Source of the DNA: Hydrogenophaga sp.
GTDB lineage: Bacteria > Pseudomonadota > Gammaproteobacteria > Burkholderiales > Burkholderiaceae_C
Direction: 5' to 3'
Assembly: GCF_022844385.1 (NCBI RefSeq)
Contig: NZ_JALHLX010000028.1
Coordinates: 1 to 33,622, forward strand
DNA: 33,622 nt
The position numbers and the translations under genes are program-made. The notes below the pieces were generated by a model. That model ran no database searches and was not told the DNA's origin. It was given only the letters and a program-made list of their open reading frames with translations. Below are positions 23,258-28,550 of this stretch, one piece after another. The first letter of the stretch is position 1. Every line of letters begins with the position of its first letter.

Positions 23258-24163
23258 TCAGACCAGCCGCGCGAGCCTGACCGCCATGGCCGAGCCGCTG
23301 CCCACCAGCGCGCACCAGGCTCGCAGCAATACCCCGGGCGGCTGGGTCTGCAGGGCCAGCGCCTCGTCGCGGTGGGCCACCTCGTCGGCCTGGCATTCGA
23401 CCAGCAAGGCGCGCAGAGCATCCACACCGGGACGTCCTTCGATGCGGTCGATCTGTTGCTGGTAGTGGTGGTCCACAAAGGTTTCCACCGACGCGATGGT
23501 GGCGTGCACCGCGCGCGGGCCCACCAGCGCGGGCAGGGCGCCGGTGAGGAAACCCGCCACCCGCCAGGCCGGCAGCAGCCAGCTGCGCCGTGCCCAGGGC
23601 AGCACCTCGCACACGCGCCGCAGGTGGTCTTCTTCGGTGGCACCGTGGCGCTGCGCAAAGGCCTTGAGTTGGGCATCGCGCGTCACCAGCGCGATGCCGC
23701 GGTAGATCCACACGGCACCGGTTTCACCCGCGTGGTCCGATCGCAGCTCGGCCAGCATGTCGTCGGGCACGGCGGGTGCGTCCAGCCCGCGCGCCACGCG
23801 CTGCATGACCGGGCGCACGCGCAGGAAACCCACGTAGGCGCGCTCCATCAGCCAGGCCGCCCCCGGCACGCGGCCCAGAAAGGCGAGCCAGCGCCAGCCC
23901 GGCAGGCGCGCCCACAGCGCCAGAAAGGCCTCGGCGCCGCTGAGCAGGCTGCCGTCTTCACGCTGCACATGAAAGCGGGCCATCAACGTGCTGCGTTCGT
24001 CGGGCAGTGCGGTGCCGGGCGCGCTCACGTCGACCCAGCGCACCGGCTCGCGCGCCGCCAGGCCCTGGTAGACGGCGATCTCGCGGCGGCACAGCGGGCA
24101 ATCACCGTCGTACAGCACGGTCATGCAGCTCTGGGCGGGGGTGGTGTTGGTCATGCCGGTCAT
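23258..24163 (-). CDS. fusion of DCC thiol-oxidoreductase (DUF393) and COQ7-like di-iron hydroxylase
   Basis: 301 residues from the ATG at 24163; the ATG at 24154 is an alternative, both with weak ribosome sites. Residues about 15-125 are a DCC/DUF393 domain: TVLYDGDCPLCRREI has the CPLC pair (C22, C25). Residues about 135-301 resemble COQ7/UbiF-type demethoxyubiquinone hydroxylases: SDHAGETGAVWIYRG (E147), EEDHLRRV, SVETFVDHHYQQQ and ADEVAHRDEA supply the expected Glu and His ligands of a carboxylate-bridged di-iron centre. COQ7 hydroxylates a quinone ring. A thiol-disulfide domain attached to it could supply or gate electrons, which is inference. It is divergent from the DGPF operon across 117 bp. 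Confidence 0.88.
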   Translation of the reverse strand: MTGMTNTTPAQSCMTVLYDGDCPLCRREIAVYQGLAAREPVRWVDVSAPGTALPDERSTLMARFHVQREDGSLLSGAEAFLALWARLPGWRWLAFLGRVPGAAWLMERAYVGFLRVRPVMQRVARGLDAPAVPDDMLAELRSDHAGETGAVWIYRGIALVTRDAQLKAFAQRHGATEEDHLRRVCEVLPWARRSWLLPAWRVAGFLTGALPALVGPRAVHATIASVETFVDHHYQQQIDRIEGRPGVDALRALLVECQADEVAHRDEALALQTQPPGVLLRAWCALVGSGSAMAVRLARLV

Positions 24164-24280
24164 CGTATCGGCGCTGGCGCGGTGCTGCAGCGCCGTGCGC
24201 CAAGACCCCAATGAAGGTGTCAAAGAAACCCTGTGCTGTGTAGGATGTTCGGCCTGCTGCCAACCCCGTCTGGAGACCCC

Positions 24281-24634
24281 ATGTCCTACATGCTGTTGAT
24301 CATCGAACCCACCACGCAGCGCGCCACCCGCACCGAAGCCGAAGGCCGCGAGCTGTATGGCCGCATGCAGCGTTTTGGTGAAAGCCTGCAAGCGCAGGGC
24401 AAGCTGAGGGCTTCCGAATCGCTGGCTTCCCAGACCAGCGCGGTGCGCGTGTCCACCACCGCCGGGCGGGCGACCGTGGTGGATGGCCCGTTTGCCGAGG
24501 CCAAGGAAATGGTGGGCGGCTTTTTTTTGCTCGATTGCGCCAGCCTCGATGAGGCCGTGGCCATTGCCCACGAATGCCCGGCAGCCGAGTGGGCCACGGT
24601 GGAGGTGCGGGCCCTGGCGCCCTGTTACGAATGA
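24281..24634 (+). CDS. YciI-like DGPF-domain protein
   Basis: 117 residues from the ATG at 24281 (TGGAGACCCC upstream). Ferredoxin-like YCII fold; the DGPF signature is in VVDGPFAEAKEMVGGFFLLD (residues about 66-85). DGPF proteins are the best-known companions of ECF42 sigma factors and contain no enzyme motif that gives a reaction. First gene of the operon ending in the sigma factor. A candidate promoter upstream has TGTCAA at 24218-24223 with TAGG 17 bp further on. Confidence 0.86.
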   Translation: MSYMLLIIEPTTQRATRTEAEGRELYGRMQRFGESLQAQGKLRASESLASQTSAVRVSTTAGRATVVDGPFAEAKEMVGGFFLLDCASLDEAVAIAHECPAAEWATVEVRALAPCYE

Positions 24635-24637
24635 GCG

Positions 24638-24664
24638 TGTCGAAAACGCCGCTGCTGCTTCGTC
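24638..24664 (+). promoter_or_regulatory. candidate ECF42 promoter
   Basis: TGTCGA at 24638-24643, a 17-bp spacer, and CGTC at 24661-24664. This fits the -35/-10 signature I remember for ECF42 sigma factors (TGTCGA and CG[A/T]C). It lies 47 bp before the second DGPF gene, in the 77-bp gap between the two. The first DGPF gene has a weaker TGTCAA element at the same spacing. Confidence 0.6.
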
Positions 24665-24711
24665 GTACCGGTTGAGACAACCCAACCGACCCCGGTCACC
24701 AGGAGAAGCCC

Positions 24712-25143
24712 ATGCGATTCATGATCATCGTCAAGTCCTGCGACGAATTCGAAGCCGAAACCAGCCCCGCGCCCGACGAGGCGCTCATGGCCGAGATGGT
24801 GCGTTACCACGAGGAGATGGCCCAGGCCGGTGTGCTGCTCGACGGCTCGGGCCTGCACCCCAGCAGCAAAGGCTGGCGTGTGCACCACAGCGCCGATGGC
24901 AGCAAGCGCATCGTCGATGGCCCGTTTGCCGAAGCCAGGGAGCTCATCGCCGGCTACACCCTGATCCAGGTGCGTTCGCGCGAAGAAGCGCTGGAGTGGA
25001 GCCGCCGTTTCCCCAACCCGGCCGGCCGCGGCAAGGACGCCGTGGTCGAGCTGCGCCAGCTCTGTGAACTGGACGACTTCCCGCCGAGCCAGCCGCTGGA
25101 GGACTTCAAGAAGCTCGACGCCCTGCAGAGGCCCCAACCCTGA
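24712..25143 (+). CDS. second YciI-like DGPF-domain protein
   Basis: 143 residues from the ATG at 24712 (AGGAGAAGCCC upstream). DGPF signature in RIVDGPFAEARELIAGYTL (residues about 64-82). The C-terminal 40 residues (FPNPAGRGKDAVVELRQL onward) carry an acidic, Pro-rich tail not in the first copy. The two paralogues share the core but are clearly diverged. The putative ECF42 promoter lies 47 bp upstream. Confidence 0.86.
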   Translation: MRFMIIVKSCDEFEAETSPAPDEALMAEMVRYHEEMAQAGVLLDGSGLHPSSKGWRVHHSADGSKRIVDGPFAEARELIAGYTLIQVRSREEALEWSRRFPNPAGRGKDAVVELRQLCELDDFPPSQPLEDFKKLDALQRPQP

Positions 25144-25153
25144 GGAGCCCGAC

Positions 25154-25597
25154 ATGCCAGCCCAACACTTCGACATCCTCATCCAGGCGCCACGTGAGCA
25201 GGTGTGGACCACCATGCTGCAGTCGCCCACCTACGAGCAGTGGACCAGCGTTTTCTGCGAAGGCTCGCGGTTTGAAGGCTCCTGGGACGCGGGGCAGACC
25301 ATCCGCTTCTTTGGCTCGGACGGCAACGGCATGGTGTCCGAAATTGCCGAACACCGTCCCGCCGAGTTTGTGTCCATCCGCCACCTCGGCTTCATCGCCA
25401 ATGGCCAGGACGACACGACCAGCGACGCGGTGCGCGCCTGGGCCCCTTGCTTCGAGAACTACAGCTTCAGCGACGAGAGCGGGGGCACCCGCCTGCGCGT
25501 GGCCCTGGACGCGTTCGGTGGCTACGAAGACATGATGGCCAAGCTCTGGCCGTCGGCCCTGGACAAGCTCAAACGCCTGTGCGAAGACACCAACTGA
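25154..25597 (+). CDS. SRPBCC/AHSA1-like protein
   Basis: 147 residues from the ATG at 25154, with TGAGGAGCCC upstream. The pattern 'IxAPREQVWTTM..SPTYEQWT' and a hydrophobic-pocket half-barrel, followed by a C-terminal helix (MMAKLWPSALDKLKRL), match the START/AHSA1 family, which binds hydrophobic ligands or partner proteins. Such genes often accompany DGPF and VOC genes in ECF42 operons. The stop of the preceding DGPF gene is 10 bp away. Confidence 0.82.
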   Translation: MPAQHFDILIQAPREQVWTTMLQSPTYEQWTSVFCEGSRFEGSWDAGQTIRFFGSDGNGMVSEIAEHRPAEFVSIRHLGFIANGQDDTTSDAVRAWAPCFENYSFSDESGGTRLRVALDAFGGYEDMMAKLWPSALDKLKRLCEDTN

Positions 25598-25617
25598 CCC
25601 AACGACCGGAGGACCCC

Positions 25618-26028
25618 ATGCTGCGCGAAATTTTCGTCAACCTGCCCGTCAAGGACTTGAACAAATCCCGGACCTTCTTCAAGGCGCTGGGCCTGAACTT
25701 CAACCCACAGTTCACCAACGAGAAAGGCGCCTGCCTGGAGATTGCACCCAACATCTGCGCCATGCTGCTGGTCGAGCCCTTCTTTCAGGGCTTCACCAAG
25801 CTGCCCATTGCCGACGCCAGAAAGACCACCGAGGTGCTGATCGCGCTCTCGTGCGACAGCCGCACCGAGGTGGAAGAGCTCGTCGCCCAGGCCGTGGCCG
25901 CTGGCGCCACCACGCCCAATGCGCCGCAAGACCACGGCTTCATGTTTCAGCACGGTTTTGCCGACCTGGACGGACATCAGTGGGAAGTGTTCTGGATGGA
26001 CATGGCTGCAGCGCCGGCGCAAATGTAG
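25618..26028 (+). CDS. VOC-family (glyoxalase-like) protein
   Basis: 136 residues from the ATG at 25618 (CGGAGGACCCC upstream). The fold begins MLREIFVNLPVKDLNKSRTFF and ends DLDGHQWEVFWMD, the standard N- and C-terminal strands of a vicinal-oxygen-chelate domain. A possible metal-binding Glu lies in the last strand (QWEVF). VOC proteins include glyoxalases, dioxygenases and binding proteins, so no reaction is assigned. It lies 20 bp from its upstream and 9 bp from its downstream neighbour, within one operon. Confidence 0.85.
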   Translation: MLREIFVNLPVKDLNKSRTFFKALGLNFNPQFTNEKGACLEIAPNICAMLLVEPFFQGFTKLPIADARKTTEVLIALSCDSRTEVEELVAQAVAAGATTPNAPQDHGFMFQHGFADLDGHQWEVFWMDMAAAPAQM

Positions 26029-26037
26029 CCGCTGCGC

Positions 26038-27306
<1,269 letters not shown>

Positions 27307-27363
27307 TCTGTGGTCCTTTTGCCCGGGTACAAGCCCCCATGGCGTGGCGCGCGCGCGCCCCCC

Positions 27364-27387
27364 ACACTCGTCAAAAAAGACGAGTGT
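27364..27387. repeat. perfect 9-bp hairpin just before the FMO-like start codon
   Basis: ACACTCGTC (27364-27372), six A, then GACGAGTGT (27379-27387). Only TC separates it from the ATG at 27390. As RNA the stem would occupy the ribosome-binding region; as DNA it could be an operator, or a terminator for the sigma factor gene 57 bp upstream. Confidence 0.7.
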
Positions 27388-27389
27388 TC

Positions 27390-28550
27390 ATGTATCCCAC
27401 ACCCACCACGCGCACCGAGGTCGACACGCTCGTCATCGGTGCCGGACCGGCTGGCCTGGCCACCGCGGCCTGCCTGGCGCAACACGGCGAGCGCTCGCTG
27501 GTGATCGATCAGGCGCGCGAGGTCGCCTCGAGCTGGCGCCACCACTACGAACGCCTGCACCTGCACACCGTCAAGACGCATTCGGCGTTGCCGGGTCTGC
27601 CGTTTCCCGACAGCGCACCACGGTACGTGTCGCGCGAAGGCGTGGTCGACTACCTCACGCGCTACGCCGATCGCCACGGGATCGAACCCGAGCTGGGTGA
27701 CTCCGTGGTGGGCATCGAGCCTGCAGCGCCGGGCGCGGGCTGGATCACCCGCACCGCCAGTGGGCGGTTGATCGCGTCGCGCCAGGTGGTGGTGGCCACC
27801 GGCGCCAACCGCCGTCCGCGTGCGCCCGCGCTGCCGGGGCAAGGCCACTTTGGCGGGCGCGTGCTGCACAGCCGCGAGTACCACAACGCCAAGCCCTTCG
27901 CCAACCAGCGCGTGCTGGTGGTGGGCATGGGCAACACCGGCGCCGAGATCGCGCTGGACCTGGTGGAGCACGGCGTGCGCGCCGCGCTGTCGGTGCGCTC
28001 GCCGGTCAACATCGTCTATCGCGATGTGCTGGGCCGGCCCACCCAGCTCTCCAGCATCCTGCTCAGCAAGCTGCCGCACGCGCTGGGCGACGCGGCCGCC
28101 ACGCTGCTGCGCAACCTCAGCGTGGGCGACCTCGGCCGCTACGGCCTGCACACGGCCGACGTGTCACCGCTGCGCCAACTGCGCGAAGACGGCAAGACAC
28201 CGGTGATCGACGTGGGCACGGTCGCACGCATCAAGCGCGGCGACATCCAGGTCTATCCCGGCATCGAGACCCTGCTGCACGGCGGCGTGCGCTTCGCCGA
28301 CGGCACCGAACACCCCTTCGACACGGTCCTGCTTGCCACCGGCTACGACCCCGCGTTGAACGAACTGTTTCCGGTCACGCCCTTGCCGCTGGACGCGCGC
28401 GGCATGCCCACACAGGTGGTGGGGCAGGGCGATCTGGCCGGGGTGTATTTCGTGGGCTTCGACGTGCGCCAGCCCGGTGGACTGTTGCGTGCCATCGCTG
28501 CGCAGTCGCAGCAGGTAGCCGGCCACATTGCTCGGGCCGGCCGCTCTTAA
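27390..28550 (+). CDS. FMO-like flavin monooxygenase
   Basis: 386 residues from the ATG at 27390; an in-frame ATG 51 bp upstream would encode Arg-rich sequence across the hairpin and is less likely. The FAD-binding GAGPAG is at residues 17-22. The FMO fingerprint is HFGGRVLHSREYHN, followed by the NADPH-binding GMGNTGAEIAL. The C-terminal ATGYDP motif completes the YUCCA/class B flavin monooxygenase pattern. Such enzymes insert oxygen into N, S or C centres; the substrate is unknown. Convergent with the DUF3237 gene: the two stop codons overlap within TTAA (28547-28550). Confidence 0.88.
   Translation: MYPTPTTRTEVDTLVIGAGPAGLATAACLAQHGERSLVIDQAREVASSWRHHYERLHLHTVKTHSALPGLPFPDSAPRYVSREGVVDYLTRYADRHGIEPELGDSVVGIEPAAPGAGWITRTASGRLIASRQVVVATGANRRPRAPALPGQGHFGGRVLHSREYHNAKPFANQRVLVVGMGNTGAEIALDLVEHGVRAALSVRSPVNIVYRDVLGRPTQLSSILLSKLPHALGDAAATLLRNLSVGDLGRYGLHTADVSPLRQLREDGKTPVIDVGTVARIKRGDIQVYPGIETLLHGGVRFADGTEHPFDTVLLATGYDPALNELFPVTPLPLDARGMPTQVVGQGDLAGVYFVGFDVRQPGGLLRAIAAQSQQVAGHIARAGRS

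Follow-up and report, generated by a model that had tools for sequence, protein, structure and literature searches.

Conservation of an ECF42-type promoter signature behind a YCII gene of Hydrogenophaga sp. and the apparent position of that gene outside the ECF42 regulon

The mapped promoters of RpoE10, an ECF42 sigma factor of S. meliloti, read TGTCGG-N17-CGTC, and RpoE10 overexpression raised glyoxalase-like genes and one gene with a hydrophobic-ligand-binding domain (PMC6180224). The same source places the start of SMc01149 9 bases after CGTC, and states that SMc01151, the first gene of the rpoE10 operon, which lies before rpoE10, was not raised by RpoE10 overexpression (PMC6180224); autoactivation can therefore fail. 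A review states that the partner of the ECF42 extension remains to be identified and itself suggests a YCII protein (PMC8999054). In another source, a ligand, possibly a protein, is proposed to bind the TPR domain and suppress ECF42 activity (PMC9023288).

We analyzed a stretch of 33,622 nucleotides from Hydrogenophaga sp., hereafter the window, which contains the following features.

24218..24223, plus strand: TGTCAA, not an ECF42 promoter (no CGTC at N16-18)
24241..24246, plus strand: TAGGAT, candidate sigma70-type -10 hexamer of YCII1 (conserved in the related loci L092 and L147)
24281..24634, plus strand: YCII1, a YCII/DGPF protein of 117 aa, apparently outside the ECF42 promoter (Pfam YCII, 1.2e-17)
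24638..24664, plus strand: TGTCGA-N17-CGTC, very likely an ECF42-type promoter (window match, conservation, mapped TGTCGG-N17-CGTC promoters of S. meliloti)
24712..25143, plus strand: YCII2, a YCII/DGPF protein of 143 aa, first gene past the promoter (Pfam YCII, 1.8e-15)
25154..25597, plus strand: AHSA1/SRPBCC-like protein (Pfam AHSA1, 1.8e-6)
25618..26028, plus strand: glyoxalase/bleomycin-resistance-like protein (Pfam Glyoxalase, 2.9e-6; Ble-like_N, 2.3e-10)
26038..27306, plus strand: ECF42-type sigma factor of 422 aa, the C-terminal extension containing DUF6596 (Pfam)

The YCII2, AHSA1-like, glyoxalase-like and sigma genes are separated by 10, 20 and 9 bp, and the sigma gene ends this co-directional row, in agreement with an earlier reading of the sequence alone that had called it the last gene. 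The protein carries ECF regions 2 and 4 (Pfam Sigma70_r2, 3.5e-10; Sigma70_r4_2, 1.7e-8), followed by approximately 245 residues in which DUF6596, which we take to be a mark of ECF42 sigma factors, was matched at 1.9e-37. ECF42 extensions comprise about 200 residues and are rich in TPR repeats; no Pfam TPR model reached 0.001 here, where the extension covers about residues 180-422. Comparison with solved structures yielded seven matching chains, all sigma factors and confined to residues 9-179. The YCII/DGPF neighbourhood of ECF42 is represented by the two YCII genes in the window. No adjacent anti-sigma gene was found: the Pfam models matched by the operon genes and by the gene after them are those of YCII, AHSA1, glyoxalase and flavin monooxygenase. 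The flavin-monooxygenase-like gene (27393-28550) lies past the sigma gene and shares its strand, and no terminator-like site was found between the two.

The ECF42 systems of S. meliloti RpoE10, S. venezuelae Sven_0747, Sven_4377 and Sven_7131, and P. putida ECF-10 share with this locus a YCII-related gene upstream, a long C-terminal extension without an anti-sigma family in adjacent genes, and TGTCG-type N17 CGTC promoters. The small regulon described for S. meliloti RpoE10 consists of glyoxalase-like and hydrophobic-ligand-binding proteins, and comparable kinds of genes are present here. Unlike in those systems, the promoter here lies between two YCII genes that belong to different clades, the upstream gene being apparently outside the regulon. 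The -35 box also differs from that given for RpoE10 (TGTCGA here, TGTCGG there), and the motif before SMc01151 is described as overlapping the mapped start site in S. meliloti.

In the window, TGTCGA (24638-24643) and CGTC (24661-24664) are separated by 17 bp on the plus strand. TGTCGA begins 3 bp past the YCII1 stop (24634), and 47 bp lie between the end of CGTC and the YCII2 start (24712); the coordinates in the sequence-only reading, between both DGPF genes and 47 bp before the second, were confirmed. Liu et al. in 2018 reportedly gave TGTCGA with CGTC or CGAC as the ECF42 group promoter signature, and this form is present at the window's locus. The pattern TGTCGA-N17-CGTC matched once in the whole window (shuffle expectation, 0.04; 4 of 100 shuffles had a match). 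In the whole genome, spacers of 15-19 bp gave 102 matches versus 75 for the reversed control, and the exact N17 pattern gave 6 versus 10. Because the exact pattern shows no genome-wide enrichment, the sequence alone would not convince; the motif is weak at genome scale, and the site owes its significance to position and conservation. With these, 24638-24664 is very likely an ECF42-type promoter.

Conservation was examined across 141 loci, comprising the window, 60 regions of the family and 80 contigs, the best of a named collection, that represent several phyla. The family regions came from 53 of the 58 sigma-positive genomes among 150 genomes of the family. One locus was probably counted twice, because L178 and L144 (a family genome and Piscinibacter sakaiensis) encode identical sigma proteins. 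A YCII match lay within 5.5 kb upstream of the sigma gene in 131 of the 141 loci. The spaced dyad (CGTC or CGAC, N17) was found upstream of the ECF42-type sigma gene in 115/141 loci (78 CGTC, 36 CGAC, 1 both), which supports the earlier proposal that an ECF42 signature serves the sigma operon. Counted separately, in the conservation check suggested with that proposal, TGTCGA-N17-CGTC occurred in 79/141 related loci and the CGAC form in 37/141; the S. meliloti -35 form TGTCGG had no N17 match in the 141 loci. At least 5 of the 26 loci without an exact N17 site had under 3.2 kb of upstream sequence. Scanning the spacer over the 5 kb before the sigma gene revealed a peak at 17 bp, with 83 CGTC and 41 CGAC sites, compared to at most 20 CGTC and 6 CGAC sites at the other spacings from 12 to 23 and 3 in the reversed control. 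When the two bases after TGTC were left free (N17-CGWC), GA occurred 124 times and every other pair at most twice. A site with a spacer of 16-18 bp was located 30-84 bp before the script-chosen start of 99 YCII genes.

The third base of the -10 box varied with lineage. Proteobacterial loci with a site had CGTC in 77 cases and CGAC in 7, whereas the other loci with a site comprised 29 with CGAC, 1 with CGTC and 1 with both. In three Variovorax loci and in a close relative (L090, L096, L114, L172), the box was CGAC and not the CGTC usual in proteobacterial loci. Q or non-Q at sigma residue 48 was the best split tried against this base (88% agreement, 114 sigmas), with 2 independent pairs on well-supported branches and 9 on all branches. 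The sigmas of L163 and L172 share Q at this position yet differ in the -10 base. Residue 48 as the determinant of CGTC or CGAC was dropped as confounded by descent.

A FastTree tree of the 198 YCII proteins from the 141 loci placed YCII1 of the window and 59 others on one branch with a local support of 100. Within this clade, the signature (spacer 16-18) followed 46 of the 60 genes, 0-95 bp past the stop, and preceded none within 150 bp. The other 138 YCII proteins were preceded only in 95 cases, both preceded and followed in 4, followed only in 1 and neither in 38; the N17 signature lay within 100 bp upstream of 85 of these 138 genes against a shuffle mean of 0.1. As the loci are related by descent, shuffle comparisons throughout overstate significance. 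Fourteen clade members have no exact copy within this reach behind them: 8 of these carry a copy with a change in the first base alone at most 41 bp past the stop, L072 has an exact copy 307 bp away, and 5 have none within one mismatch. A looser pattern, TGTCRR-N16-18-CGWC, lay within 200 bp upstream of 1/60 members. In L149, L067, L192 and L180, the signature is still behind YCII1 though the next gene is not YCII2. The Hydrogenophaga taeniospiralis locus, L068, likewise has TGTCGA-N17-CGTC after its YCII1 gene. The clade loci are Burkholderiales-type, except one Nitrosomonadales locus and one other gammaproteobacterial locus, and 38 were assigned to the window's family. As YCII1-clade genes are followed by the signature in 46/60 cases and never preceded by it, the ECF42 operon appears to begin at the signature, with YCII1 outside, and the signature does not look like a site inside the operon, as had been proposed.

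The sigma was present in 44 of the 45 YCII1-positive genomes of the family sample, and 14 of the 58 sigma-positive genomes had no YCII1 at E<=1e-25. The exception, G035, has a sigma (C27:46546-47202) that matches only at residues 1-74 and 277-420, which suggests an internal deletion, and also a full-length relative of 37% identity. Its YCII1 lies approximately 3 kb from the broken sigma, with no signature in C27:48000-53000. We also sampled 30 genomes of the genus, in 18 of which the sigma was present at E<=1e-60, some of the 12 others being less than 90% complete. The signature was found after YCII1 in 15 of the 17 genus genomes with both YCII1 and sigma. In G172, it was only approximately 190 bp past YCII1, and in G169 and G176 it was not behind YCII1. 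In G154 the sigma was found and YCII1 was not; G151 and G152 carry YCII1 but lack the sigma, and no site is listed next to their YCII1 gene.

Alternatively, the main promoter may lie before YCII1, the unit would include YCII1, and the site at 24638 would act as a secondary, internal booster. The co-directional genes, the 3-bp gap between the YCII1 stop and the site, and the failure to find a terminator-like site at this junction are consistent with such an arrangement. Against it, the N17 signature was found within 100 bp before 0/60 YCII1-clade genes, and none of the 7 loci with a displaced YCII1 or a broken sigma had an exact signature within 600 bp upstream. Upstream matches within one mismatch occurred among these seven only in L242, 682 and 1177 bp away, the one at 682 bp being exact, and exact signatures lay downstream in L237 and L239. 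We consider an internal booster unlikely.

The sequence-only reading had placed a second promoter before YCII1, in the form of TGTCAA with the same spacing, and had hinted at two promoters of different strength. Neither claim was supported: 17 bp after TGTCAA the sequence reads TAGG, the sole CGTC before the YCII1 start codon is at 24267, 43 bp downstream of TGTCAA, the three closest relatives in the comparison (L092, L147 and L067) lack TGTCAA, and TGTCAA-N17-CGWC occurred in 0/141 loci. TGTCAA was rejected as an ECF42 promoter.

TANNAT is the core of the sigma70 -10 box. The hexamer TAGGAT lies 34 bp before the YCII1 start codon, and L067 reads TAGCAT where the window, L092 and L147 read TAGGAT. 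TANNAT was found within 100 bp before 24 of the 60 YCII1-clade genes (shuffle mean 3.7, maximum 8), 36 having none, and before 3/138 other YCII genes (shuffle mean 7.8). Before the clade, a two-box sigma70 pattern showed no clear enrichment (5/60; shuffle mean 1.0, maximum 7), and within 24000-27500 no site was found that agrees with the sigma70 consensus at 9 of 12 positions. From these sequence patterns, sigma70 control of YCII1 appears plausible.

A sharper pattern, TGTCGAW-N14-TTCGTC, gave 44 sites in the 30 genus genomes, compared to 2 for the reversed control. Forty-two of them fell in sigma-positive genomes, 16 of the 18 having at least one, and the remaining 2 were both in G151, one of the 12 sigma-negative genomes (Fisher p 1.5e-5 per genome, relatedness ignored). 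G151 retains a remnant at L278:1468-2055 (minus strand), a 195-residue open frame in which the first part of YCII1 is followed by the end of the sigma C-terminal extension, represented by the final 76 matched residues, the rest of the operon being gone. Genes flanking this remnant resemble the window's neighbours, and a flavin-monooxygenase-like gene similar to that of the window adjoins it. The two G151 sites may be relics of a lost system.

Twelve of the 44 sites were behind YCII1 and 32 elsewhere, of which 31 were examined, G158:C34 being left out. For 27 of the 31, the start of a gene with a ribosome-binding-like site lies 29-82 bp downstream; these are 7 YCII, 7 AHSA1-type, 5 glyoxalase-type and 7 DUF1428 genes and 1 transporter. 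One member of each family was identified with Pfam and the others through similarity, and the transporter was named by eye. The window's operon itself includes YCII, AHSA1 and glyoxalase genes, like the targets elsewhere in the genus. No such gene was found downstream of 4/31 sites, one of them in the window's genome. ECF42-type sites precede unlinked YCII, AHSA1, glyoxalase-type and DUF1428 genes in several genus genomes (L244-L276), and G160 has six sharper-pattern sites.

A wider regulon in the window's genome was considered and rejected: the sole further sharper-pattern site, C49:11775, falls within one gene, at its end, with an antiporter-like gene 163 bp further on and no fitting target gene beside it, and is probably a chance match. 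Searching this genome with a DUF1428 target and an AHSA1-type target gave nothing at E<=1e-8, nulls of a kind that show little. A glyoxalase-type target with 94% identity is present near the end of the sequence stretch C214; going by the length of the locus, we judge its promoter to lie outside the assembly. The two-mismatch site scan there covered only the strand opposite this gene.

The dyad could also be read by another ECF sigma factor, for example an ECF41-type factor with a similar -10 box. The promoter of the RpoE9 (ECF41) operon of S. meliloti reads TGTCAC-N17-CGTC (PMC6180224), and the present site shares its 17-bp spacing and CGTC -10 box but has TGTCGA as the -35 box. In the 141 loci, however, the free bases after TGTC were GA 124 times and AC once, the sites follow the ECF42-type sigma from genome to genome, and at E<=0.001 the sigma has just one other match in its own genome, which by eye resembles RpoE. 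We regard recognition by another ECF sigma factor as very improbable. A functionless chance match is hardly credible, given the positional conservation across phyla and the 17-bp spacer peak, even though matches to the exact pattern do not outnumber those to the reversed control in this genome.

Taken together, it is probable in our estimation that 24638-24664 is the promoter for the operon's own ECF42-type sigma factor, and that YCII1 lies outside the regulon behind a housekeeping-type promoter whose read-through would provide basal sigma. The direct basis comprises the sequence, the gene order, the conservation, the co-occurrence of sites and sigma, and the lack of a signature before YCII1-clade genes; from it we infer that this sigma recognizes the site, where transcription starts, that the operon autoactivates, that read-through occurs and that sigma70 controls YCII1. 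The housekeeping-type promoter would read YCII1, and read-through past its 3' end would supply the basal sigma needed to start the loop. Read-through is likely since the genes are co-directional, only 3 bp separate the YCII1 stop from the site, and no terminator-like site was found. Going by one start mapped in S. meliloti, RNA polymerase with the active sigma would begin transcription near 24673, approximately 9 bp past CGTC. The transcript would cover YCII2, the AHSA1 and glyoxalase genes and the sigma gene, forming a positive loop. Autoactivation of the sigma operon is thus likely, because the gene order places the sigma gene behind the promoter.

YCII1 is the best candidate for the partner of the ECF42 extension, because it is conservedly excluded from the regulon, and it fits a sensor better than YCII2 does, because a sensor should precede the response. 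Across 48 loci, without a species-tree control, the distance-matrix correlation with the sigma extension was 0.68 for YCII1 and 0.52 for YCII2, and the partial correlations were 0.56 and 0.25, respectively. This comparison, suggestive only, points to YCII1 over YCII2 as the partner. We tentatively propose that YCII1 is the partner of the extension in Burkholderiales, a constitutive sensor that restrains the sigma from outside the loop, with YCII2 and the others as effectors; the ECF42 promoter would stay behind YCII1, housekeeping read-through would prime the sigma and the loop would take over. As a whole, this proposal is speculative and less likely to hold than not.

The promoter type, the YCII neighbour and the small regulon are already known for ECF42. 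What may be new is that one YCII paralogue is excluded from the ECF42 regulon in a conserved manner; the open-licence literature searched yielded no account of a YCII clade lying outside it. This split, with one clade outside the regulon and the others inside, names a concrete candidate for how ECF42 sigma factors sense their signal.
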